From contig AP019514.1 of the NCBI GenBank assembly GCA_007182875.1, positions 2,170,001 to 2,234,000 of the forward strand: DNA of 64,000 nucleotides. The letters are read 5' to 3'. Below the pieces are notes generated by a model, which was not told where the DNA came from, searched no databases, and saw nothing but the letters and a program-made list of their open reading frames with translations. The DNA is from Vreelandella sulfidaeris. Its GTDB lineage: Bacteria > Pseudomonadota > Gammaproteobacteria > Pseudomonadales > Halomonadaceae. A program made the translations under genes and the position numbers. Shown here in pieces: positions 10,061 to 24,609 of this stretch. Within the stretch, counting starts at the first letter, position 1. Every line of letters begins with the position of its first letter.

Positions 10061-11210
10061 CAGGACGCCTCCCGCACCATATTCCGGGCGATTACCAACT
10101 GCTGAATTTGGGTCGTTCCTTCATAAATACGGAACAGTCGAACATCGCGATAAAAGCGCTCAACGGCATATTCAGACATATAGCCCGCGCCACCGTGAAC
10201 CTGCACCGCGCGGTCGGCCACCCGGCCCACCATTTCGGCGCAGAACAGCTTGCAGCAGGAGGCCAGTGTAGAAACATTTTCACCGTCATCCCTTGCGCCG
10301 CGCGGCGTCCATCACCATGGTTTTGCCAGCGTAGGCTTCAGTTTTGCTGTCCGCCAACATCGCCTGAATCAACTGATGCTCAGACAACGCAGCACCGAAC
10401 TGCTTGCGCTCCATGGTGTAGCGTAATGATTCATCCACCAGGCGTTCCGCCACCCCCACACAGACCGCCGAAATATGCAGACGCCCGCGGTCGAGTACTT
10501 TCATGGCCGTCTTGAAACCCTGTCCTTCTTTGCCGCCAATGATGTTTTCAGCGGGCACGCGGCAGTTATCAAAATAATGTCGCAGGTATGCGCTCCTTTC
10601 TGACCCATCTTGTTATCCGCCGGGCCGCGCACCAAGCCGGGCGTATTGCCCTCAACAATAAACGCAGAAATACCCCCGCCCCTTTATTCTCAGGGTCGGT
10701 ACGCGCCATCACGGTAAACAGGTCGGCTTCGGGCCCGTTGGTGATATAACGCTTGGTGCCGTTCAAAATGTAGTGATCGCCATCGCGTACGGCCGTGGTG
10801 CGTAGGCTGGCCGCATCGGAGCCTGAATCCGGTTCGGTCAGGCAGAATGAGCTGAGTATCTCGCCAGTGGCCAGGCGCGGCACATATTTGGCTTTCTGCT
10901 CCTCGGTGCCATCAATCAGAATGCCCTGGGCCCCAATGCCGTTATTGGTACCGAACACCGAACGAAATGCCGGGGAGGTCTTGCCGATTTCCATCGCCAC
11001 CAGGGCTTCCTCTTCCATAGTGAGACCGAGACCGCCGTACTCTTCAGGAATCGATAGCCCGAATAGCCCCATCTCCTTCATTTCCGCCAGAATCTCGGGG
11101 GGCACCGCATCCTCTTCGGCGAGTCGTGCTTCGTTGGGAATCAAACGCTCGCGGACAAAGCGGGAGATAGTATCTACAAGTTGATTGATCAATTCGGGAT
11201 CACGAATCAT
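10060..11210 (-). CDS. Acyl-CoA dehydrogenase with canonical catalytic glutamate, frameshifted
   Basis: A third acyl-CoA dehydrogenase, about 383 residues, likely the first oxidation enzyme of the ligase operon. It starts MIRDPELINQLVDTISRFV at the ATG preceded by AGGAGCCGTC. Motifs are IPEEYGGLGLTMEEE, CLTEPDSGSDAASLRTTAV, NGTKRYITNGPEAD, MERKQFGAALSEHQLIQAM and QVHGGAGYMSEYAVERFYRD. The C-terminal IYEGTTQIQQLVIARNMV holds the catalytic glutamate, unlike the large subunit at 671-1861. Three indels lie near 10675, 10575 and 10295. The stop overlaps the start of the acyl-CoA synthetase. It is divergent from the 3-hydroxyacyl-CoA dehydrogenase gene across a 235-bp control region. Confidence 0.9.
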
Positions 11211-11372
11211 GACGGCTCCTGGTGGCAAAGGACTGCTTTTATCGTTGGAATAGCACGTGAGTACGTGTGAAAGTCGAACGTAACTGGCGTTATTTCACCA
11301 TGCGAAATTAACGCTCGCGTTGCTTGTCAGGCACTTTTGCATAGCCTAGGATGGCAGTCAATAATTGAAACA

Positions 11373-11393
11373 GTATTTTGCACTGCAGAATAC
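11373..11393. promoter_or_regulatory. 21-bp inverted repeat, candidate operator in the divergent control region
   Basis: Arms GTATTTTGCA and TGCAGAATAC flank a single C; nine of ten arm positions are complementary. It lies 53 bp before the start of the 3-hydroxyacyl-CoA dehydrogenase gene, within the 235-bp region that separates two divergent catabolic operons. The IclR-family gene at 14309 is the only regulator nearby and is the natural candidate to bind it. That link is inference. Confidence 0.5.
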
Positions 11394-11445
11394 AACTAAC
11401 AAATAAGCAGGCATAACAAGCCCAATAACCGAGAGGATTTGGCAT

Positions 11446-12978
11446 ATGGCTAGTGAATCAACACCGTCTCCCTTTACCACACTGGGCATTGTGGGCACCG
11501 GGGCCATGGGCCGCGGCATTGCCCAATTAGCCGCTCAGGCAGGTCTTAACGTGATGCTTTTTGACGTCAAGGGAGGGAGCGGTCAGCGAGGCACAGCGCT
11601 TTATTAATGGGCTTTGGCATAGAAGTGCTGAAAAGCAGCGCATCACTAGCGAACAGGCACAGCAATATAGTGAGCGATTGGTCGAAGCCCAGAACTACAC
11701 GCCCTCGCTACCTGCGATATCGTGGTCGAAGCGATCGTCGAGAAACTCGAAGCCAAACAGGGGCTGTTTAGCGATTTAGAAGGCATTGTCAGCCAGGATG
11801 CCGTGCTAGCGACCAATACCTCCTCCCTCCTCGGTAACCGCAATTGCTGCTGCCTGTCAGCACCCAGAGCGAGTGATTGGCTTTCATTTCTTTAATCCTG
11901 TGCCTCTGATGAAAATCGTAGAGGTGATCCCTGGGCTGCGCACTGACGACGAGGTTACCCAGCGAGTCAATGCGCTGGGCGCCGCTATGGGCCACTTTAC
12001 CGCGCAAGCCACCGACACACCGGGATTTCTCGTGAATCACGCCGGGCGCGCCTTTGGCACCGAAGCGCTGCGAATTCTCAGCGAAAGCGTGACCGACCCT
12101 GCCACAATAGACCGCATTATGGTTGATCAGGGCGGTTTCCGAATGGGCCCTTTACCCTGCTTGACCTTACCGGCCTGGATGTTTCCCATGCGGTGATGGA
12201 GTCGGTGTATCACCAATACTATGAAGAGCCACGCTTTCGCCCCTTCCCCACTCACTCGCCAGCGCCTCACGGCGGGTTTATTGGGACGCAAAACCGGGGA
12301 AGGCTTTTACCGCTATGTAGACGGCCAGCAGCAACTGCCGGATGAGCCCGCCATTGCACAGGCCTCCCCATGTCCGGTGTGGATCAGCCAAGACGACCCT
12401 GACAGCGCCGCCCAGCTAGCTGAATTGGTTAACACCGCGGGCTGGCCGCTAGAAAGTACCGATCAGCCGTCCTCGCAGGCGCTCTGCCTGCTCACACCGT
12501 TGGGTGAAGACACGACTTCGTGCGCCCTGCGCCAAGGCTTGAATGCAGAGCAGTGTGTGGCGGTTGATATGCTGGCCGGGCTAGATAAACGCCGCAGCCT
12601 GATGGCCTCGCCGATTACCCTTCCTGAAATGGTTAACGCCGCCGCTAGCCTGCTCAATGCCGATGGCACGCCGGTTAGCAAGCTTCACGACAGCAACGGT
12701 TTTGTGCTGCAACGGGTGGTGGCATGCATCGTCAACGTCGGCGCCGATATCGCGCAGCAAGGGGTCGCTGAACCCGCCACCATCAACCGTGCGGTAGAGC
12801 TCGGCCTGGGCTACCCGTTTGGCCCGCTGCGCATGGGCGACCACTACGGCGCTTCGCGCATCATGACCATCCTTAATAATCTGCTGGAAGCCACCGGTGA
12901 TCCCCGCTACCGCCCCAGCCCGTGGCCGCCGCCGCGCCGCGCCTCGGTATGTCACTCACTGACGGGCCAACAAGCTAA
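11446..12978 (+). CDS. 3-hydroxyacyl-CoA dehydrogenase, two-domain (PaaH-like), frameshifted
   Basis: An NAD-dependent 3-hydroxyacyl-CoA dehydrogenase of about 510 residues with a repeated C-terminal domain, the architecture of PaaH-type enzymes. It begins MASESTPSPFTTLGIVGTGA; the Rossmann motif GTGAMGRGIAQLAAQAG is near the N-terminus. Next come LATNTSSL, the catalytic-histidine segment VIGFHFFNPVPLMKIVEV, and DTPGFLVNHAGRAFGTEALR. The second copy of the C-terminal domain contains VACIVNVGADIAQQG and LGLGYPFGPLRMGDHYG. Indels lie near 11572, 11700, 11830, 12150, 12215 and 12930. The restored end reads LGMSLTDGPTS with a stop at 12976-12978, 36 bp before the thiolase. First gene of a dehydrogenase-thiolase pair that would complete the beta-oxidation cycle. 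Confidence 0.88.
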
Positions 12979-13014
12979 CACAGCTTGGGTTTACACAAAT
13001 AAAGGAGAATAACG

Positions 13015-14205
13015 ATGCAAGATGCCTATATTTACGACGGATTACGTACCCCTTTTGGCCGCCATGGCGGCAGTTTGGCGGCCATTCGCCCGGACGAGCT
13101 GCTAGGCCTGACCTTAAAAGCACTGGTGGCGCGTAACCCTTTGCTCCAGAAAGCTATGAAGAAGTGCTGGCAGGTTGTACCAACCAGGCGGGTGAAGATT
13201 CGCGTAACGTGGCACGGCACGGTGCTCTCTTGGCGGGCCTGCCTATCGAGGTAGCAGGCCAGACCGTCAACCGTCTGTGCGGTAGCGGCTTAGCCGCTAT
13301 GATGGATGCTGCCCGCGCCGCACGTTTAGGTGAAGGCAAGCTGTTTTTGGCGGGCGGTGTTGAATCCATGTCACGTGCGCCTTACGTACTAGGCAAAGCA
13401 GACTCGCCCTACGCCCGAAACCAGCCAATGTACGATACCGTCATTGGCTCACGCTTCCCCAACCCGTGGATTGCTAAAGAGTACGGCAGCCACAGCATGC
13501 CGGAAACCGCAGATAACATCGCCCACGACCTCAACATCGGCCGCGATGCCAGTGACGCCTTTGCCGCCCGTTCCCAGGCACGCTATGCCCAGGCGTTGGC
13601 CGCAGGCTTTTACGATGGCGAGATGTTTGGCGTCGAGGTGCCACAGGGACGCAAACAGCCACCTCTGTTAGTGGATAAAGATGAGCATCCCTCGCCCCGG
13701 AAGCACAGAAGATAAACTGGCTGCTTAGGGCCTCTGTTTGAGGGCGGTGTGGTAACGGCAGGTAACGCCTCCGGGCTGAACGACGGCGCGGCGGCAATGA
13801 TTGTCGGTTCTCTTTCAGCAGGTGAGCGCGCCGGGCTCGCTCCGCGGGCGCGTATTGTATGTCCCGCCACGCGTGATGGGGCTGGGTCCAGTGCCCGCTT
13901 CGCAAAAGGCATTAGCCCGAGCGGGTCTGACCCTTGACCAGATGGACGTGATTGAAATTAACGAAGCCTTCGCGGTTCAGGTACTCGGTTGCGTTCAGCA
14001 ACTGGGACTCTCGGCCGACGATCCGCGTTTGAATGCCAACGGCGGTGCGATTGCTATTGGCCACCCACTGGGTGCCTCAGGTGCCCGCTTGGCGCTAACG
14101 GCGCTGCGCCAGCTAGAAGTGACCGGCGGTCGTTATGCGCTGGTGACCATGTGTATCGGCGTAGGCCAGGGCATTGCCACGGTCATCGAACGCCTGGATG
14201 GCTGA
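13015..14205 (+). CDS. Acetyl-CoA acyltransferase (thiolase; 3-oxoadipyl-CoA thiolase-like), frameshifted
   Basis: A thiolase of about 400 residues that cleaves 3-oxoacyl-CoA with CoA. The N-terminus [19 protein letters not shown] resembles the PcaF/PaaJ branch. The nucleophilic cysteine is in [18 protein letters not shown]. The other active-site elements are [26 protein letters not shown] (histidine) and [11 protein letters not shown] (second cysteine). Frameshifts occur near 13150, 13690, 13730 and 13860; each rejoins with one base. The start follows AAAGGAGAATAACG. With the upstream dehydrogenase it supplies the last two steps of a beta-oxidation cycle. A PcaF-like thiolase and PimC/PimD-like dehydrogenases both point to dicarboxylyl-CoA intermediates, though this is not proof. 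Confidence 0.92.
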
Positions 14206-14308
14206 ATCGATTTAACAAGGAAGGCCTTTTCGTTGATGGGCACGAAAACTGCCCCTATGTAGATATGCGATAATGGACGCCATAAGCCACCTATTGTTGG
14301 GACACTGA

Positions 14309-15130
14309 ATGCAACCCACTGACACAGATGCTGACGAGCCGCAACTGCCTGGGAAAGATCGTAATTTTGTGACCGCGCTGGCGCGCGGTCTAGAACTGCT
14401 ACGTGCTTTTGGTACGGGTGAAGAGTATCTAGGCAATGCCGAACTCTCCAATCGAACTAATATTCCCCGGCCTACGGTGTCACGGCTGACCTATACGCTG
14501 ACCCAACTGGGTTACCTGCAGCACAATACGCATCTGGAAAAATACCGTCTTGGCCCCGGTGTGCTGGCGCTGGGCTATCGTTTCCTGGCTAATATGGGGA
14601 TTCGCGAAGTTGCCCGACCGCATTTGCAGAAATTTGCCGATGCCACCGACTGTAATGTCAGCCTAGGCAGCGCTGACCGTAGCGACATGGTTTATCTGGA
14701 AACCTGCCATGGCAGCGGACCACTGATCATTCGTCTGGATGTGGGTTCGCGGCTGCCCATTGCCACTTCTGCTATTGGTCGCGCCTGGCTTTGCGGCTTG
14801 CCTACCGCCCGACGCCAGCAGTTAATGCATGAGCTGGCTGATTTTCATGGCAGCGACTGGCCAGCGCTGGAAGCCGGTATCCAGCAGAGCTTGAACGACT
14901 ATGCCGAGTATGGTTTCTGCCTATCAGAGCAGGATTGGCAGCGCGATATCAGCGCCGTGGCCATGCCGCTCATTCTGGAAGATGGCGCCGAGGTTATGGC
15001 CATCAACTGCGGTGGCTCCAGCCTGCGGTTGGATCATGACCGCCTCGTTAATAACCTGGGGCCGCGCCTGAAAGAGGTAGCAGAGCAGATCAAGCAAGAA
15101 TTGGCGCCCCGTTACCGCTCTGCTAGGTAG
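14309..15130 (+). CDS. IclR-family transcriptional regulator
   Basis: An intact 273-residue IclR regulator. The N-terminal winged helix (about residues 22-85) reads FVTALARGLELLRAFG then AELSNRTNIPRPTVSRLTYT, the recognition helix, then LGYLQHNTHLEKYRLGPG. The effector domain follows, with VSLGSADRSDMVYLETCHG and LPIATSAIGRAWLCGLP. The latter, with FCLSEQDWQRDISAVAMPL, forms the ligand pocket of the family. IclR proteins commonly control aromatic and dicarboxylic acid catabolism, often from a nearby gene. Here it sits 100 bp after the thiolase, on the same strand, so it probably controls this cluster. Its last codons overlap the end of the convergent kinase gene by 8 bp. Confidence 0.92.
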   Translation: MQPTDTDADEPQLPGKDRNFVTALARGLELLRAFGTGEEYLGNAELSNRTNIPRPTVSRLTYTLTQLGYLQHNTHLEKYRLGPGVLALGYRFLANMGIREVARPHLQKFADATDCNVSLGSADRSDMVYLETCHGSGPLIIRLDVGSRLPIATSAIGRAWLCGLPTARRQQLMHELADFHGSDWPALEAGIQQSLNDYAEYGFCLSEQDWQRDISAVAMPLILEDGAEVMAINCGGSSLRLDHDRLVNNLGPRLKEVAEQIKQELAPRYRSAR

Positions 15131-16977
15131 CGTCGTCGAGTGATAACCGTTTGACATACTCCCGCGGGTCGCGGGGGTAGTAGCGTTCAGGCTGGCTTTC
15201 TAGATGGGTGAAATAGCGGGTGTCTTTGTACGGCATCTTCATGTAGCCCGATACACCCAACCCCTCAATTTGGTTGACCGACGCAAGGATGCGGGCCAGC
15301 AGTATCCGAAACTCCCTTTCCCTGGCGGGATCGAGCAGGCGGTAATAGCTATGTATTTTGAGGTGCTGGGGTAATGCTTCAAAAATGATCATGCCGGTAT
15401 GGTGGATATCATTCAGCTGCTGCAGTACCTGCATGATCGCCTCCGGCAGTGCTAACAGCTCTTCGGGATCGGGACCATCTTCAAAGTAGCTATGCTGACG
15501 GGTGCGATCTTCAAGCTCCGGCACTGCACTCAGCTCGTAGCTAATAGCCATGCTTGGCTCGCTGACAAACGTCTCCTCGGCGGAAGCGCGCTCCAGATGA
15601 AGAGTTTGGCGGGCATTGAACAGGCAGCTCTTGAACACCCCTGGCGGTGAATGGCGCGCGCCAGGTGCACCATATTATTCACCGCTTCAATAAAGGCGGG
15701 CTTCAGCGCCGGGTCATGAAGGTTGAGCGACGAGTCAATGTATACCCCTTCACGCTCCCAGCGTACCGCCAACCCACCTACCACCGGATATTTGCCCAAC
15801 CGGCTGACCGATGCCAGAAAGGCTTTCTCGGTTTCTCCCATCCCTGCATGAACTGTTTGTAATAGCGGTCGAGCTGCACATCGTTGACGTCATTAAGCGT
15901 TTCCTGCGCTGTCGCTTCACGCAGAAAGGCTTTGCGCGAGCTATACACCACGGTATCGATCTCCTGCCGGGCAGGACGTGCCCAAACCGGCACTAGCGGC
16001 ACCTTTACAGATTCGGGGAGATCAATCATCACGACCCTGGCCATTCTCGCCATGTTGGCTAAAAAATAGTCGCCTGCTGTACGCCGAACCTGAGGGTCGG
16101 GGTCGAGCATACCATCCAGCGTGCGGGCAAATTCCATAGGCAAACCCAGCGAGCTGGCTGGAATAGCGCGATGCCCAAAACGACAGGATTGTGCCGAGGC
16201 CAGTGCGTACAAGGTGCCCGCAGTGCCCTGCTCATCAAAGCGCGGCGATGACAGCGCACCGTTCAACTGCTCTTCACCGATAAAATAAACATCGCCCAGG
16301 CGAGCATTGGTTTGCTGCAGGTTATCCGACATTAGCTCCATCACATTAGCGCCCACAAACTGCAGCTGGGCATCCAACTGGGCAAACACCGATGAGCCCC
16401 AGTCGATTAGCGCAATAGACTCATGCACGATGTCATACACCAAGTTAGAGGGTTTAATATCGCCATGCACGACGGGACGCGCCTGAGGGCCGGACTCCCG
16501 GCGCAATGCGAGGAGGATATCGGCCAACTGCGCGGCTATACGTACAATCAGGCGTGGTGAGAGTCGCCCCTGCTTGAGCGATACCTGCTCTAAATTCCAG
16601 CCGGGTGCACGCTCCATCACCAGGATGGATTGCCCCCTGGAGCGCTGGTAGGCAATAAGGCCTGGAATGCGTGGATGAGATACCTGATCGAGCATAAACG
16701 CCTCTTCTTCGAGGCGCTCTTGCAAGTGCGTGGGGAGGGTAATGCGCGAGAACTTGAAGACATAATGGGCTGTAATGCCTTGGTTGACGGTGCTACCGGC
16801 AAATACAAAACCATAGGCGCCCTTACCAATTAACTCGATGCCCTGATAACCCAACTGGGTGAGCTGTGCCTGGCACAGCGCCACCCAATCCTTGAGTTTA
16901 CGGGCATCGTGATGGCTCAGCAGATATACCGACTGCTCTTCGGGTATATAAAACTGCTGTAGCGTTGATTGGGGCAT
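15123..16977 (-). CDS. Large serine/threonine-type protein kinase, last gene of the bkd operon, frameshifted
   Basis: A protein of about 617 residues with an N-terminal eukaryotic-type kinase domain (about 45-300). The glycine loop is LIGKGAYGFVFAG, the ATP lysine is in HYVFKFSRI, the catalytic loop is VVHGDIKPSNLVYD (HGD in place of HRD), and the metal loop is ALIDWGSSVF (DWG in place of DFG). The region after about residue 320 has no repeats or membrane segment and I do not recognise it. Breaks lie near 15840 and 15638; single-base repairs give one continuous chain. The start lies 11 bp after the E2 stop, so it is translated from the branched-chain dehydrogenase operon. This suggests a regulatory link, but it is not related to the mitochondrial BCKDH kinase, which is a GHKL ATPase. 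Confidence 0.85.
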
Positions 16978-16988
16978 AAGTCGCCTTG

Positions 16989-18274
16989 CTAGCCCAAGTG
17001 AAGCAACATGGTCTCGGGATCTTCCAGAAAGCCCTTCCAGGCATTGCAGAAGCGGGCAATGGTGCCTCCATCGATAAAGCGATGATCCCCCGCCCAGGTG
17101 ATTGTCATAATAGCGCGTCGCTGCACCGCGCCCTGCTCATCGAACCTCGGTAGCCATTGCGTTTTACCAATCGCCACAATCGCGGCTTCCGGTGCATTGA
17201 TGATGGGGCAGCGTAGGTGCCGCCGAGCGCACCAATATTGGAAATACTGATGGTTCCGCCTTTGAGATCCGCTTGATCAACACGCCCTTCCCGTGCAGCC
17301 GTGGTTAATCGTCCAACTTCGCGGGCAATCTCCAGCAACGTCAGCTGCTCAACGCTTTTAACATTGGGTACCATCAGACCCGCTTTGCTATCCACTGCCA
17401 TACCAATGTTGCACTGAGGGTAGTAGTGCAGTTCATCACCCGTCGCATTTAGCTGAGCGTTTACAATAGGTTGTTCGGCGACTGCTAACGCCATGGCTTT
17501 CATAAAAATGGCATTAGCGTTAGCCGCTCGCCTTGGGCTTCTGCCAACGGTTTTAAGCGTTCGCGCAGAGCCAGCAGCGCGGTCACGTCGATCTCTTCTC
17601 CATAGTGAAAATGGGGAATCGTGCTAGCCGCTTCGACCATTCGCTTGGCCATCACCGCGCGAATGCCGCGGAGCGGTTCTACCCGTGGCGCCTGCGTATC
17701 GGGTAATGATTGACTGGCTGGGGCCGCTGGTTGCGATGTTTGGTCCAGATGCGCCAGCACATCTTCTTTCAGTACTCGGCCATCTTTGCCACTGCCAGCA
17801 ATATCCTTGAGCAGAAGAGAATGTTCACGTACTAAACGCCTTACGGCAGGGCTTGCCGGGACTTTGCCAAGTAAGCCACCCGTAGCAGCTCCCCGGTGCC
17901 TGGGTTGATGCATGTATCGATGCCTCTGCCTGGGATGAGTCTGTTTTCGATAAATCTGCGGATAGCTCTACCGGCAGTTCAGCAGGTGTCGGTTCGCCTG
18001 TTTTTGTCTGGCTTTCACTTGCACTCGCCTGGCCCTCTCCGTCAACTTGATAGGCATACAGAGGCGCATGTACTTTAGCAATCTGCCCCTGTGCAACGTA
18101 GAGTTTGGTCACCACCCCGCTTCGGGTGCGGTTATCTCTACCAGCGCCTTGTCGGTCATGACTTCGACGATAGGCTGGTCTTCTTCAATTTGATCGCCTT
18201 CTGCGACGCGCCATTCGACGACTTCGCACTCGACAATACCTTCGCCGATATCAGGCGGTAAAAAAATCGCTCAT
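16989..18274 (-). CDS. bkdB: Branched-chain 2-oxoacid dehydrogenase E2 (dihydrolipoyl acyltransferase), frameshifted
   Basis: The core acyltransferase of about 428 residues. An N-terminal lipoyl domain (residues 1-80) reads DIGEGIVECEVVEWRVAEGD with the lipoylated lysine in VMTDKALVEI. A proline/alanine/serine-rich linker, a peripheral-subunit-binding domain (KVPASPAVRRLVREHSLLLK) and the catalytic domain follow. The catalytic domain has GIRAVMAKRMVEAASTIPHF and the active-site TWAGDHRFIDGG. Five breaks are at about 18262 (T7 run), 18118 (G run), 17890, 17505 and 17200. The start ATG at 18272-18274 follows GGGGAG. The upstream genes are the two E1 subunits, and no E3 gene is present in the window. 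Confidence 0.92.
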
Positions 18275-18312
18275 TGTTATTCTCCCCACGCATTCTTAGG
18301 CTATTTAAGCCA

Positions 18313-19289
18313 TTAAAAATTAACGCTTTCGCGAATCGCTTCAAAAATTTTCAGGTGATCAGGCAGATACTCTTTTCCAGCACCAGAGGAAAAGGCGTAT
18401 CCAGCCCTGTCACCCGAGCAATGGGCGATTCCAGGTAGAGAAAACAACGCTCTTGAATGGTCGCGGCAATTTCACCTGCAAACCCACCGGTTAACGGTGC
18501 TTCATGGCTCACTACGAGGCGTCCTGTCTTCAGCACTGATTCAGCGACTGTATCAGCATCCCAGGGCAGCAGTGAACGCAGGTCGATCACTTCACAAGCG
18601 ATGCCTTGCTCTTCTGCTAACTCAACTGCTTTGCCGATGACTTCCATCTGCGCACCCCAGCCCACCACGGTAATGTCGGTGCCCTCCTTGGTGACTTCGG
18701 CCTCGCCAATGGGCAGCTGATAATCGTCTTCGGGGACCTCGCCTACCGCTGCACGATAGAGACGTTTAGGTTCGAGGAAAAGCACTGGATCAGGGTCGCG
18801 AATAGCGGCAAGTAACAGCCCTTTAGCCTGATAGGGATTGCGCGGCACCACCACTTTTAAACCGGGGTATGGGTGAAATAGGCTTCAGGAGACTGGGAGT
18901 GATAGAGGCCGCCGGCGATCCCCCCACCATAAGGGGGTGCGAATGGTCAGCCCACCCACATTGAACAGATCGCCCGAGCGGTAGCGGAACTTGGCCGTTT
19001 CGTTAACGATTTGGTCAAACGCGGGAAAGATATAGTCGGCAAACTGAATTTCCGCGACGGGTACCGAGCCTTGCGCCGCCAAGCCGTTGGCAAAGCCGAT
19101 AATGCCCTGTTCGACCAGCGGCGTGTTGAAGCAGCGAGCCTTGCCGTACTTCTCCTGTAAATGGCTTGTTGCGCGGAAAACACCGCCGAAAATCCCCACA
19201 TCCTCACCAAAGCAAATGACTTTTTCGTCTTCTGCCATGGCGATATCCAGCGCGTTATTGATCGCCTGGAGCATATTCATTGTGGCCAT
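18313..19289 (-). CDS. bkdA2: Branched-chain 2-oxoacid dehydrogenase E1 component, beta subunit, frameshifted
   Basis: The E1-beta subunit, about 325 residues, starting [20 protein letters not shown]. The family signatures are [40 protein letters not shown] and [20 protein letters not shown]. After the restored glycine-rich segment the chain gives [29 protein letters not shown] and [15 protein letters not shown]. Breaks occur at about 18927, 18862 and 18365; the restored tail reads [20 protein letters not shown] with a stop at 18313. The start is one base past the E1-alpha stop, consistent with coupled production of the two E1 subunits that decarboxylate branched-chain 2-oxoacids using thiamine diphosphate. 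Confidence 0.93.
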
Positions 19290-19290
19290 G

Positions 19291-20499
19291 TTATGCCTCT
19301 CCCTGCGGATCAGTGTCTGTGCCTACGTCTAAGTCCAACGACTTTACTCCTCGGGGATAAGCCTCTGGGTAGCGACGGATATGGCGTTTTAACTGGTCAA
19401 ACTGACGCTGAAGCGCTGGTGTGATATCGGCATACACGTCGCTGATCAAGCTCTCAAGCGGTGGTGATGAACGCTTTTCGGCCCGCTTCAAGGTTTCAAG
19501 TACTTCACGACGCAGATTTTCTTGCTGGGTGGCTTCTTCCTCTTCACTCCACCACTGTTTCTTCAATAGCCATTTTTGTAGCCGCAGCAAGGGATCTTTG
19601 GCGCGCCATATCTCTTCTTCATCTTTTGAACGGTAGCCTGAGGGGGTCATCAGAGGGATGAGTGTGCGGCAAGGCGGTAGCTCATAGCTTCGATCAATAC
19701 GGGCTGGTTGCGCTCAACGGCGATTTTGCGCGCTTGACGGGTCGCTTCATAAACTGCCAGCACATCGTTGCCGTCCACGCGTATCACATGCATGTGATAA
19801 CCAAACGCCCGGGGGGCGATACCATCGGCGGCGAACTGCTCGACGGCAGGCGTGGAAATGGCATAGCCATTATTGCGGCAGAAAAAAATAACCGGCACTT
19901 GATGTACTGATGCCATATTCAGTGCGGCGTGGAAATCGCCTTCGGAGGCAGCGCCTTCACCAAAAAAGGTTAATGTGCAGTGGCCGTTACCAGCCAGTTT
20001 CTGCCCATAAGCATAACCTGTCGCCTGAGGAATCTGAGTGGCCAGGGGGGGACGAGATGGTCATATAGTGAAGCTTGCGCGAACCATAGTGGATCGGCAT
20101 TTGACGACCTTTGCCGTAGTCCAACTCATTCCCAAATAGCTGGTTCATAAACTCATCAATTGAGAAACCGCGATACATCAAGGCACCCTGTTCACGGTAC
20201 TGGGCCATGATCATATCGGCATCATCAAGCGCGGCGGTAGCGCCTACCACAGCTGCTTCCTCACCCGTACACTGCATATAGAAACTAAGCCGCCCCTGGC
20301 GCTGGGCAGCCATCATTCGTTCATCCAGGATGCGCGTAGCCAACATTGCTTGGTAAATGCGCCGGGCATGATCACGCTCAAGTGCTGGTTCGGTGGCGCC
20401 GCTATGTAGCTCGCCTTCTGGGTTGAGCAGGCTAAAGGTAGGAATTGAAATTTCGTCGCCGGTCATGAAATCCGGCTGATATACATACTGTGTCATCAT
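19291..20499 (-). CDS. bkdA1: Branched-chain 2-oxoacid dehydrogenase E1 component, alpha subunit, frameshifted
   Basis: The ThDP-binding E1-alpha subunit of about 402 residues. It starts [20 protein letters not shown]; either of two adjacent ATGs can be the start, after AAGGAC. Motifs are [38 protein letters not shown] and [20 protein letters not shown], which is the ThDP/Mg site. [14 protein letters not shown] and SYRLAAHSS (phosphorylation-loop region of the family) follow. Two indels, in a G7 run near 20050 and near 19650, break the frame. The C-terminal 110 residues are rich in charged amino acids. First gene of the operon E1-alpha, E1-beta, E2, kinase. The complex makes acyl-CoAs for branched-chain amino acid catabolism and branched fatty-acid primers. 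Confidence 0.93.
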
Positions 20500-20661
20500 T
20501 ATTGTCCTTGTTTTACCCCTTTTGAGGGCAGTGTTGTTGGTATTGACCGTTTATGCCAGTGGATTTATCTGTCATAAGCCAACACAACACCTAGCTACCA
20601 CAACGTTTAGGACAATAACGCAGCACAACAACTTTAGGGATACAACTTAAGGCGCAGAGAT

Positions 20662-20700
20662 TAAGGGAAGAGGGTAAGGGAAGAGGGTAAGGGAAAGAGG
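20662..20700. repeat. Three tandem copies of a 13-bp purine-rich unit
   Basis: Units TAAGGGAAGAGGG (20662-20674), the same (20675-20687) and TAAGGGAAAGAGG (20688-20700) sit just past the yehW-like stop, between that gene and the bkd operon start. No coding frame crosses them. Function unknown. Confidence 0.9.
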
Positions 20701-20715
20701 TTAAGACAAAGTAAG

Positions 20716-21489
20716 TTATGCCGCAGAAAGACGGGAACGTAATTGGCGCTGCAACAATTCAAACAAGCTGTCGACCGTCAAGGCCAATAATGCAATGGTC
20801 AATGCGCCCTGTACCACATAGGCCATGTTTCCGTTCACAATACCGGAAATAATGGGATCGCCCAGATTACTAGCCCCCACGGTAGCCCCAAGGGCCGCGG
20901 TAGCAATATTAATGGTCACCGAGGTGCGTATACCCGCCAATATTACCGGAGCCGCCAGCGGGAGTTCGACCTGACGCAACACTTGCGCCGATGTCATCCC
21001 CATGGCATGTGCCGCTGTTTTAATGTCCTGCTCCACTTCCTGCAGACCGGTAAGTGTGTTGCGCACGATCGGCAGTAACCCATAAAGTATTAGGGCGACA
21101 ATAATTGGCAAGGTGCCAAACCCCAATACGGGGACCGCCAACGCCAGTACGGCCACTGGTGGAAACGTTTGTCCAAGTGAGGCCAACTGGCCGACCAAGG
21201 GTAAAAAATCACTGCCACGCTCACGTGTAACGGCGATGCCTGCTAATACGCCAACGCTAATAGTCACGACCGCTGCTATTCCTACCACCAGCAGATGTCG
21301 CCCGAGCAGCACATAAAAATCAGCTCGGTCATAAACCACTTGACGGGAATCGGGCTCTACCCACCGAAATAACGGCTCGGCTACGGACATTCCTACGACA
21401 CTGACCAGCAACAATCCTCCCCATATTAGCGGCCAGCGCCAAAAAGCAGCTTTTTGTTGTAACGGCGCAACGCTGAATGAATTATTCAT
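20716..21489 (-). CDS. yehW: Osmoprotectant ABC transporter permease, YehW-like
   Basis: An intact 257-residue inner-membrane permease starting MNNSFSVAPLQQKAAFWRWP after AGGAAG. It has five to six hydrophobic helices. The cytoplasmic coupling segment AAHAMGMTSAQVLRQVELPL is the EAA loop that docks on the ATPase. The following ILAGIRTSVTINIATAALGA is the conserved end of glycine betaine/carnitine/choline permeases. The start overlaps the end of the ATPase gene by 8 bp. An in-frame ATG further upstream exists but lacks a ribosome site and would extend the overlap. Last gene of a four-gene order matching E. coli yehZYXW. Import of a quaternary ammonium osmolyte is inferred from the family. Confidence 0.88.
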   Translation of the reverse strand: MNNSFSVAPLQQKAAFWRWPLIWGGLLLVSVVGMSVAEPLFRWVEPDSRQVVYDRADFYVLLGRHLLVVGIAAVVTISVGVLAGIAVTRERGSDFLPLVGQLASLGQTFPPVAVLALAVPVLGFGTLPIIVALILYGLLPIVRNTLTGLQEVEQDIKTAAHAMGMTSAQVLRQVELPLAAPVILAGIRTSVTINIATAALGATVGASNLGDPIISGIVNGNMAYVVQGALTIALLALTVDSLFELLQRQLRSRLSAA

Positions 21490-22444
21490 GTGCGCTTCCT
21501 TTGTCCAGTTGAGCCTCCTTAATAAGCCTACGCAGCGAAAGCTCACCAATAGGCACATCATGCTGGTCTACTACAGTAAGCCTATCGCTGTGATCACGCA
21601 GCATCATGGACAACGCTTGGCGTAACGTAAAAACCGCCGGTATGCGTGAATGGGCGGGCAAGGTAGGACCCAACGAGGTCATATGATCTTTAACGCGCGT
21701 TAATGCCGCCTGCTTGAGACCCCGCTCGAGCCCTCCCAACATTGACTCAACAAACGCGTCGGCAGGCTGTTGCAATAACGCCAGCGGAGAACCTTGTTGC
21801 ACGATTCGCCCTTCCCGCATGACCACGAGGTGGTCCGCCAACTTTAGGGCTTCGTCCATATCGTGAGTGACAAATACCACGGTCTTATGCAGCCGCGCCT
21901 GAAGCTTGGCCAACTCATCTTGAAGCTTTTCACGGGTAATAGGATCGAGAGCGCCAAAAGGCTCGTCCATCAACATAATATCCGGGTCTGCTGCGAGTGC
22001 ACGTGCTACGCCTACCCGTTGTGCCTGGCCACCGGAAAGCTGGTGAGGATATTTGTGCGCGAACTCACCTACGGGCAAACCGAGTAAAGCCATCAACTCT
22101 TCTACCCGCGCTTGAACATCCGCCGCTGACCACTTCAATAAACGTGGCACTAAGCCGATATTGCGCGCCACGTTCCAGTGAGGAAACAGCCCAGTGTGCT
22201 GAATCACATAGCCAATCCGACGGCGTAGCTTCACTGGGTCATACGCCTCAATCGCCTGCCCATCAAGAATGATGTCACCTTCGCTGTGCTCAATTAAGCG
22301 GTTGATCATACGCAGCGTGGTCGATTTTCCGCAGCCAGAGGTACCCACTAGCGCACAGAATTTTCCTTTCGGCACTCGCAGCGAAATATCATTCACCGCG
22401 ATATCATCACCAAACCGCTTAGATACATGGGAAAGCTCAATCAT
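21482..22444 (-). CDS. yehX: Osmoprotectant ABC transporter ATP-binding protein, YehX/OpuCA-like
   Basis: An intact 320-residue ABC ATPase. Walker A is LVGTSGCGKSTTLRMI (about residues 33-48), the Q-loop VIQHTGLFPHWN, the signature HQLSGGQAQRVGVARALAAD, Walker B IMLMDEPFGALDP and the switch histidine VTHDMDEALKLADH. After about residue 240 there is an extra domain with LRQALSMMLRDHSDRLTVVD and DVPIGELSLRRLI, which resembles one CBS motif, as in OpuCA-type ionic-strength sensing ATPases. The start overlaps the stop of the upstream permease (ATGA at 22441-22444). It powers uptake by the two permeases flanking it. Confidence 0.93.
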   Translation of the reverse strand: MIELSHVSKRFGDDIAVNDISLRVPKGKFCALVGTSGCGKSTTLRMINRLIEHSEGDIILDGQAIEAYDPVKLRRRIGYVIQHTGLFPHWNVARNIGLVPRLLKWSAADVQARVEELMALLGLPVGEFAHKYPHQLSGGQAQRVGVARALAADPDIMLMDEPFGALDPITREKLQDELAKLQARLHKTVVFVTHDMDEALKLADHLVVMREGRIVQQGSPLALLQQPADAFVESMLGGLERGLKQAALTRVKDHMTSLGPTLPAHSRIPAVFTLRQALSMMLRDHSDRLTVVDQHDVPIGELSLRRLIKEAQLDKGSAHE

Positions 22445-23638
22445 CTTGTTCCTTCGGGTCGCAGTGCTTCAGCTAGGGCACCTAAGCCCGCATCAACCAC
22501 CAGAGCCAGTATTAAAATGGGCAACGCACCGAGCAAGACCATATCCATAGCCGCCTGGCCTAGGCCTTGAAAATAAAGGTGCCCAACCCACCCGCGCCAA
22601 TCAAAGCGGCAACCGCTGTGAGCCCAATGGCCTGAACAGTGGTAATTCGCACCCTTCCAGCAGCACCGGCAGCGCCAGCGGCAAGCGCACCTGCCAAAAG
22701 CGCTGACCGGCGCGCATCCCCATGCCTTTGGCGGCTTCTAAAGTGTTAGGGCTGACTTCTTCAAGCGCGATGTAGGTATTACGCACCATGGGTAGCAGGC
22801 TGTAGGCGATTAAGGCGATCAGCGCAGGCGTTGTGCCGATCCCGCTAACTCCAAGCTGATCTAAGAAAGGCACATTCTCAGCAAGCCAAGCTAGCGGCGC
22901 CAGCAGCAGACCAAAGAGCGCTAGGCTGGGTATGGTCTGAAGAAAATTGAGCACCGAGAATGCGGCCTTCTGTAGCCGTGCATAGCGTCGCATTAACATC
23001 GCCAGTACCAAACCGACTAACACACTGCTACTGACGGCGATTCCCACCAGCGCCATGTGTTGGCCTATAGCGCGAAGGAACTGTTGATCGCGCGCTCTGA
23101 ACTCTTGAACCAGGGCAAGGCTATCGAGCCAAAACGCTGCACAAAGCCACCACACTAGCGCCACGCCACATAACAGCAGTGTGGGCCAGAGGCGTGAAAG
23201 ATGTAACCGCAAGCGTATTTCTATTAAGCACAACAGAAGTACAAATAGCACCACCCAGTACGCTGCACCCAAACCTAAACGTGCCTGGGGAAGCTCAGGA
23301 TCAATCAGTAAATAACTACTCGCTATCAAGCCGACAGGCATGAGTGCCATTAACAACAGTACCGCCGCTAATAACGCGCGGTAGTGACGTATGCTCGGCT
23401 GCCACGCGAGAATAGCAATGGAGGAGAGTAATAAGGTGGCTAACAACGCGCCGGGCCAGCCAAAGGCTTCTAGCGCACCATAGCCTGTCCCTAATACAAT
23501 CCGGTTAGGCGCCATACTAACCACGTCAAAGGCCCAGAACGTGATTAGCATGATAAGGCTAAGGCTTAATAGCACAATATTAGGGTGCCGTCCCTCCCAA
23601 CGAAGCCGTGGGGTGGGCAGTGCATCCATTAGCGACAT
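22441..23638 (-). CDS. yehY: Osmoprotectant ABC transporter permease, YehY-like, frameshifted
   Basis: A long permease of about 399 residues, close to the length of E. coli YehY. The first 190 residues form several additional hydrophobic helices (for example NIVLLSLSLIMLITFWAF and YWVVLFVLLLCLIEIRL). The C-terminal half is the transport domain, with TIPSLALFGLLLAPLAWLAE and the EAA loop LEAAKGMGMRAGQRFWQVRL. Breaks at about 22660 and 22575 (each one base lost) are repaired to give GVRITTVQAIGLTAVAALIG and FIFQGLGQAAMDM, ending LAEALRPEGTR. It is preceded by the binding-protein gene 45 bp upstream and overlaps the ATPase start. Confidence 0.88.
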
Positions 23639-23683
23639 TAATTAGTTATCCCAGGCAGCATTGGTTATTAAGAGCAACAACCA

Positions 23684-24609
23684 TTAATTATTAAGCGAAT
23701 CGAGGTAGTCGCTAACCACTTGCGTCGGGGACAATCCATTCACGGCAACATCTGCATTAAGCGTTTGCAGGGTGTCCTCGTCGAGGGTGGCAAAGACGTC
23801 GTTGAGCAGTGTTTGGATATCAGGATAAGCTTCCAATACACTTTCACGCACCACAGGAGCTGGCTGGTAAACAGGCTGCACACCTTTAGAATCTTCCAAG
23901 ACAACCAGTCCCAATGCGCTTAACCCACCATCAGTGCCGTAGGTCATGGCGGCGTTTACACCGCTCGTTTGCTGGGCTGCAGCCCGCATAGTGGCGGCGG
24001 TATTGCCGCCAGAGAGCACCAGTAGCTGTTCATCGCTCAGTTCAAAGCCGTAGGCTTCCTGGAAAGCGGGTAGCGCCTGCGCTGATTCGACAAACTCAGC
24101 ACTCGCTGCGAATTTGAACTCCCCGCCATCAGCCAAATAGGCAGCGAGATCTTCCAAACTGACTAACTCATGCTCTTCAGCAACATCTTCTCGAATGCTC
24201 ATTGCCCAGGTGTTATTGGCGCTAGCGGGTTCTAGCCAGATTAAGTCTTGTTCTGCATCACGTTCACGTACGGTGGCATAGGCTTCCTCTGCATCGTTCC
24301 AAACCGGACTATCGGTCATATCAAAAAGAACGCACCATTGCCCGTATATTCCGGGTACACATCAATCTCGCCAGCCTCCAAGGCAGAGCGAACTACGCTG
24401 GTGCCACCCAGCTGTAAGCGATTTTCGGTTGGAATGTCGTGGCGTTCCAGGGTTTGAATGATTAGTTCACCTAATACCGAACCTTCCGTGTCGATCTTAG
24501 AGGACACCACGACCGGCTCATTGGCGCTGGCCTGGGAAAGGGAAATAGTGGAAACGGCACAGGCAGCAATTAACGACTTAGCAATGTTAGAATTAGCTGA
24601 AAAGCGCAT
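23684..24609 (-). CDS. osmF: Periplasmic osmoprotectant-binding protein, OsmF/YehZ-like, frameshifted
   Basis: A periplasmic substrate-binding protein of about 308 residues starting MRFSANSNIAKSLIAACAVS after AAGGAATTC. The signal peptide ends near QASANEP. GGTSVVRSALEAGEIDVYPE followed by YTGNGAFF is the hallmark of choline/betaine/carnitine-binding proteins of the OpuBC type. Later segments include LSGGNTAATMRAA and MTYGTDGGLSALGLVVLED. One T is missing in a T run near 24318; restored reading FFFDMTDSPVWN. First gene of the transporter operon. Aromatic cage residues could not be placed with confidence, so the osmolyte is not specified. Confidence 0.88.

Follow-up and report, generated by a model that had tools for sequence, protein, structure and literature searches.

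A protein kinase gene joined to the mitochondrial-type branched-chain 2-oxoacid dehydrogenase genes of Vreelandella and its relatives: a candidate regulator of the complex

Background

In mitochondria the branched-chain 2-oxoacid dehydrogenase complex (BCKDH) is inactivated by a kinase that phosphorylates two serines in a loop of the E1-alpha subunit, and this kinase, BCKDK, has a histidine-kinase-like GHKL fold (PF10436). The corresponding genes of Pseudomonas form the operon bkdA1-bkdA2-bkdB-lpdV, the fourth gene of which encodes E3 (lpdV). To our knowledge, only mitochondria are known to control BCKDH through a kinase of its own, and the titles and abstract openings of the literature yielded no description of a kinase within a bacterial bkd operon. 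PknG together with OdhI/GarA is reported to control 2-oxoglutarate dehydrogenase in Actinobacteria (PMC9769921). Here we describe a stretch of 64,000 nucleotides of Vreelandella sulfidaeris (contig AP019514.1, positions 2,170,001 to 2,234,000), referred to below as the window, in which a gene for a Ser/Thr-type protein kinase is the last of a BCKDH gene cluster. Comparison of genomes gives good support to a functional coupling of this kinase with BCKDH of the mitochondrial type, and it is probable that the protein is a dedicated regulatory kinase of the complex which evolved independently of BCKDK. Direct support comes from gene order, co-occurrence, the retention of both partners where they are unlinked, the predicted kinase fold, the catalytic residues and a BCKDH-like E1. 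The genes and the E1-alpha loop are placed in the window as follows.

19291..20499, minus strand: E1-alpha of a mitochondrial-type branched-chain 2-oxoacid dehydrogenase (Pfam E1_dh; open pieces 19987-20499 and 19291-19650)
18312..19289, minus strand: E1-beta subunit (Transket_pyr, Transketolase_C; frame broken, end placed from a same-genus relative)
16989..18274, minus strand: E2 acyltransferase (E3-binding and 2-oxoacid_dh domains; frame broken)
15123..16977, minus strand: BCKDH-linked protein kinase gene (open pieces 15778-16977, 15530-15841 and 15123-15638)
19625..19682, minus strand: E1-alpha loop, equivalent of the human BCKDH phosphorylation loop (placed by aligning the relative with 1dtw chain A; frame broken)
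14309..15130, plus strand: convergent IclR-type regulator, given for context, the end of which overlaps that of the kinase by 8 bp

The series on the minus strand thus runs from E1-alpha through E1-beta and E2 to the kinase, with the E2 stop codon TAG at 16991-16989, a spacer of 11 bp and the kinase ATG at 16977. A preliminary description of this DNA, whose coordinates span the whole cluster from the kinase through E1-alpha, had reported that spacing, the common strand and the terminal place of the kinase, all of which the coordinates bear out. It had also remarked that the kinase stands where lpdV often lies, and indeed no E3 gene was seen within the cluster; the kinase follows E2, and the next gene downstream is the IclR-type one, which adjoins the kinase in few of 20 loci compared.

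Conservation of the cluster

Gene order was compared in 100 kinase loci, 20 of them picked across 16 genera of the family and 80 being the named best matches out of 427; four contigs were duplicated, leaving 96 distinct loci. E1-alpha, E1-beta, E2 and the kinase follow one another on one strand in 94 of the 100 (90 of the 96 distinct), so that the linkage of the kinase with bkd genes survived the synteny check that the preliminary description had proposed. Three of the remaining six loci stop at contig ends, two are unlinked, and in one (L113, Halomonas ramblicola) the end of E2 and the kinase are separated by other genes over about 7.6 kb. The hosts among the named matches belong to Halomonas, Vreelandella, Billgrantia, Bisbaumannia, Litchfieldella, Salinicola, Marinobacter, Motiliproteus, Amphritea and Neptunomonas, and one further host bin is labelled Aquisalimonas. 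Among 19 loci taken from genomes further off, 15 have this order as well. The recurrence, and the presence of just three Pkinase matches in the 4.48 Mb of the window's genome, place the adjacency of kinase and cluster beyond chance. In two loci from one family (L186 and L187, of genomes G729 and G522) an extra gene stands between E2 and the kinase, rRNA-methyltransferase-like by eye or an opposite-strand open reading frame, and it is possibly a step towards unlinking.

An important consideration is whether the kinase might be a passenger, an operon mate inherited by linkage with no functional tie to BCKDH, as the co-occurrence of neighbouring genes is inflated by common descent and by the transfer of whole blocks. 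Against this, other neighbours change from locus to locus and the kinase remains, as an ABC transporter lies upstream of E1-alpha in many Halomonas loci and was not seen beside the cluster in Marinobacter loci; moreover, kinases of 52-58% identity in distant families have their catalytic residues intact, and both genes are kept where they are unlinked in three lineages (below). A passenger is already disfavoured, and we regard it as very improbable.

Presence and absence were scored in four overlapping genome samples covering the family (151 genomes), the order (244), the class (369) and the phylum (219). E1-beta was counted at an identity of at least 70%, a limit chosen after a gap between 59% and 70% had been seen, and the kinase in the family sample at E below 1e-100. 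On this basis kinase and E1-beta clade occur together in 140 distinct genomes over the four samples. The family sample comprises 113 genomes with both, one with E1-beta and a scrambled kinase (G105) and 37 with neither, a genome with a partial E1-beta at a contig edge (G131) being counted as having both. There are 29 genomes with both in the order sample, besides one with the kinase only (G345) and one with E1-beta only (G287); five in the class sample, besides one with a piece of the kinase at a contig end (G743); and ten in the phylum sample, where no genome has one alone. Left out of the counts were, in the family sample, the weak matches to the kinase in G041 and G093 (E about 1e-4) and those of second genes, as well as E1-beta matches of 37-47% identity, the only kind in G017; in the order sample, E1-beta of 56-59% in five kinase-less genomes together with a second copy in G324; and in the phylum sample, a weak kinase-domain match in G872 (E 6.5e-16). 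All 28 phylum-sample genomes that have only a more distant E1-beta (47-59%) are without this kinase, and none of the four samples contains a complete kinase without an E1-beta of at least 70%.

The apparent exceptions differ in kind. G345 has the kinase and a best E1-beta of 44%, and the homology of its kinase DNA to that of a near relative (G364) begins only at about codon 37; it was therefore rejected as a true kinase-only genome, and one deletion seems to have removed the operon and the start of the kinase together. G743 has an 85-residue piece of the kinase at a contig end, and E1-beta of this type is absent. G105 was rejected as a natural loss of E2 and kinase, as both lie in an 11-kb T-poor patch resembling damaged sequence. 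That patch (G105:C8 about 99,470-110,900; L189 from about 3,500, L240 and L241) has only 2-8% T on one strand, sharp edges and normal flanking sequence, with T and G replaced and A kept; E2 and kinase hold their length and register within it while their protein identity is down to 24% and 31%, and it represents sequencing or assembly damage or strand-specific hypermutation.

Linkage alone would explain co-occurrence, and the genomes in which the genes are apart therefore matter most. At least nine genomes from three lineages keep both kinase and BCKDH genes at separate places, so that the tie of the kinase to bkd holds there too. In five genomes of one genus (g3) a distance of about 16-27 kb separates the kinase from E1-beta, or the two are on different contigs; in three of one family (f6) the kinase is about 70 kb off or on another contig; and in G929, which is a single contig, the two sets lie at 0.65 and 2.36 Mb, up to 1.7 Mb apart. 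Seven of these nine kinases were checked, and K75, E92, D173, K175, N178 and D192 are kept in all seven. The neighbours of the unlinked kinases are alike inside a lineage and unrelated across lineages. The unlinked genomes stand at three separate points of the kinase and E1 trees; G929 and family f6 belong to one group of the E1 tree, with linked genomes between them, and the two trees have their main groups in common and weak deep forks.

The enzyme complex and the kinase

The identity of the complex was established with a same-genus relative (L034). The best match of its E1-alpha in the PDB is human BCKDH E1-alpha (E 2.4e-117, 395.8 bits), as against 230.2 bits to 1qs0 of Pseudomonas putida and 149.3 bits to human pyruvate dehydrogenase (PDH). 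For E1-beta the best match is human BCKDH E1-beta (E 3.6e-136, 457 bits, as against 336 bits for P. putida). The E2 catalytic core matches BCKDH E2 (2ihw) over 232 residues (E 2.3e-66, 228 bits), and the top full-length match of E2 is a PDH E2 (250 bits over 417 residues). These matches of E1 and E2, which place the proteins closer to BCKDH than to PDH, and the branched-chain genes near related clusters assign the complex, as judged from sequence, to the branched-chain type of the mitochondrial kind. The neighbours concerned, identified by eye, are leucine dehydrogenase-like and Lrp-type genes (G287, G364) and leucine-degradation-like genes (G328). The number of E2 lipoyl domains is seemingly one or two by species (L170-L188; one or two tblastn matches at the start of E2).

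The kinase of the relative is 618 residues long, and its parts are placed in the window as follows.

16021..16872, minus strand: protein-kinase domain (about residues 36-319, placed from the model of a relative)
16753..16755, minus strand: catalytic lysine, K75 of the relative (all 42 aligned kinases have K here; role inferred from the kinase consensus)
16444..16467, minus strand: catalytic loop HGDIKPSN, with HGD replacing HRD (H, G, D, K and N invariant in 42 of 42)
16390..16404, minus strand: DWGSS at the DFG motif position (D, W and G invariant in 42 of 42)
15126..15990, minus strand: C-terminal domain (modelled as two alpha-beta-beta-alpha-beta units; its frame is interrupted in the window)

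Pfam Pkinase (PF00069) matches the window piece with 58.5 bits and the intact relative with 60.6 bits, well over the curated cut-off of 31.7, and the predicted structure has the bilobal protein-kinase fold, in agreement with the Ser/Thr-type kinase recognised earlier. K75, E92, D173, N178 and D192 are invariant in all 42 kinases aligned, the seven unlinked ones included. The protein is PknB/NEK-like and lies outside the mitochondrial BCKDK family: PF10436 (BCKDK/PDK) matched neither in the window's genome nor in the intact 618-residue relative in Pfam searches with E up to 10, and the absence of homology to the mitochondrial regulatory kinase, also claimed beforehand, is thereby upheld. The C-terminal domain has no Pfam family and no clear fold match, Roadblock/LC7 being among the known domains considered. 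Shortly upstream of each of the other two Pkinase matches of the genome (G000:C1:846,122-847,372 and 1,807,924-1,809,276) there is a PP2C-like match, which exceeds the cut-off in one case and is weak in the other (E 0.005); the BCKDH kinase differs from both in this.

Alongside the Pkinase match stands one to Pfam APH (33-37 bits), which, together with the replacement of HRD by HGD, raises the question of whether the enzyme is a small-molecule kinase, APH-like or other, acting for example on a branched-chain metabolite or a CoA-related compound. We consider this quite improbable.

Frame breaks in the window

All four genes of the window contain frame changes. The three kinase pieces match positions 1-384, 374-448 and 444-606 of the kinase profile, and the break in E1-alpha falls inside the very loop, SYRLAAHSS, that the preliminary description had cited. 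The breaks are most likely assembly errors, because the relative L034 has the four genes intact (open reading frames of 439, 325, 422 and 618 residues for E1-alpha, E1-beta, E2 and kinase) and because the window's genome is rated 74.6% complete; an origin in real biology was rejected on the strength of those intact genes. Comparison by eye with L034 revealed more frame-broken genes near the cluster (window 10,569-24,000), namely a thiolase, a 3-hydroxyacyl-CoA dehydrogenase and an ABC transporter gene; such breaks are to be expected in an assembly that was not polished.

Function of the kinase

It is likely, from the comparisons above, that the kinase phosphorylates the BCKDH complex, with substrate, site and effect suggested by analogy. 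The kinase would be made together with E1-alpha, E1-beta and E2; its kinase domain would phosphorylate the complex, most likely at the E1-alpha loop serines used by the mitochondrial BCKDH kinase; phosphorylation would lower the activity of the complex at times when branched-chain oxo acids are better conserved; and the C-terminal domain may dock the kinase to the complex or sense a metabolite. Of these steps, co-transcription, the direction of regulation and the role of the C-terminal domain are ones that we infer.

The loop serines of the L034 E1-alpha align with serines of the human BCKDH loop (1dtw chain A). Among 117 E1-alpha from kinase-bearing loci or genomes (113 distinct sequences) the first position is serine in all 117 and the second in 105. 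In the E1-alpha of G287, which has BCKDH and no kinase, the second serine is replaced by glycine. These loop serines fit a switch shared with mitochondria, at the level of aligned residues. More tentatively, and with somewhat less than even confidence, we suggest that a bacterial switch on the same E1-alpha loop arose apart from mitochondria, through a PknB/NEK-like kinase whose C-terminal part would be a docking or sensor domain of a new kind; kinases of unrelated folds would then have taken hold of a phospho-switchable E1 loop on two occasions.

It may be instead that the kinase serves branched-chain catabolism through another substrate, such as an enzyme that breaks down leucine, valine or isoleucine or an Lrp-type or other regulator, or that its role is one of docking and not of inhibition. 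Genomic association tells of shared function and not of substrate, and Lrp-like, leucine-dehydrogenase-like and leucine-degradation-like genes do lie near some clusters (G287, G328 and G364, by eye); set against this, E1-alpha, E1-beta and E2 are the constant partners and the remaining neighbours vary by genome. On balance we think such a substrate unlikely.

A number of observations weigh against a dedicated regulatory kinase of BCKDH. The second loop position is other than serine in 12 of the 117 kinase-bearing E1-alpha, and among 13 E1-alpha of kinase-less or other type the first position is serine in five and threonine in six; because it is thus serine or threonine in 11 of the 13, the pattern is no proof of a switch. 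The regulatory role proposed in the preliminary description therefore stands in part, favoured by synteny and by a kinase that is not of the BCKDK family, while the first loop serine, which occurs in kinase-less relatives, is not diagnostic. In G287 BCKDH is kept without the kinase, a leucine-dehydrogenase-like gene following E2 instead, and the kinase is therefore dispensable there. Kinase and E1-alpha distances correlate with r 0.58 for pairs with an unlinked genome versus 0.92 for linked ones (41 genomes), and the trees conflict over G929, G850 and G584, which are placed differently on long or deep branches. Only one PF13672 match of the genome exceeds the cut-off, and it adjoins a different kinase; the search for phosphatases, confined to this family, gave no dedicated one. 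A look for sigma-70-like promoters over the cluster gave none, which says little. The identity limit for E1-beta, as noted, was set after the fact, and action on protein serine or threonine is a prediction from the kinase family.

If a dedicated regulatory kinase is nevertheless the correct explanation, marine and salt-loving bacteria such as Halomonas, Marinobacter and their relatives would regulate branched-chain amino acid breakdown after translation, switching BCKDH by phosphorylation through a kinase unrelated to the mitochondrial one. Two unrelated kinases could then be compared directly on one enzyme. The proposal also supplies a substrate hypothesis for a kinase family whose relatives number at least 427 in a single genome collection and for which no described function was found, and it is testable in culturable bacteria. 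Halomonas also serves as a production host, where the flux of oxo acids is of importance.

Comparison with known systems

Mitochondrial BCKDK resembles the present system in being dedicated to BCKDH, and the likeness extends to the substrate, human E1-alpha being the best PDB match with both loop serines at equivalent places; it differs in belonging to GHKL/PF10436, whereas the bacterial protein is PknB/NEK-like with a different C-terminal domain. The Pseudomonas bkd operon likewise unites E1-alpha, E1-beta and E2 of a branched-chain 2-oxoacid dehydrogenase, but here a kinase and not E3 ends the cluster, and the P. putida E1 is more distant than the human one. From kinases of the PknB/PknA type the protein is set apart by the lack of any PASTA match, by its HGD and DWG motifs and by a separate C-terminal domain outside the Pfam families. 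The nearest bacterial parallel is PknG, likewise a Ser/Thr kinase by which bacteria adjust how active a 2-oxoacid dehydrogenase complex is. The complex and the phylum are different ones, however, and PknG reportedly works through a small inhibitor protein (PMC9769921), whereas the conserved cluster described here contains no inhibitor gene.

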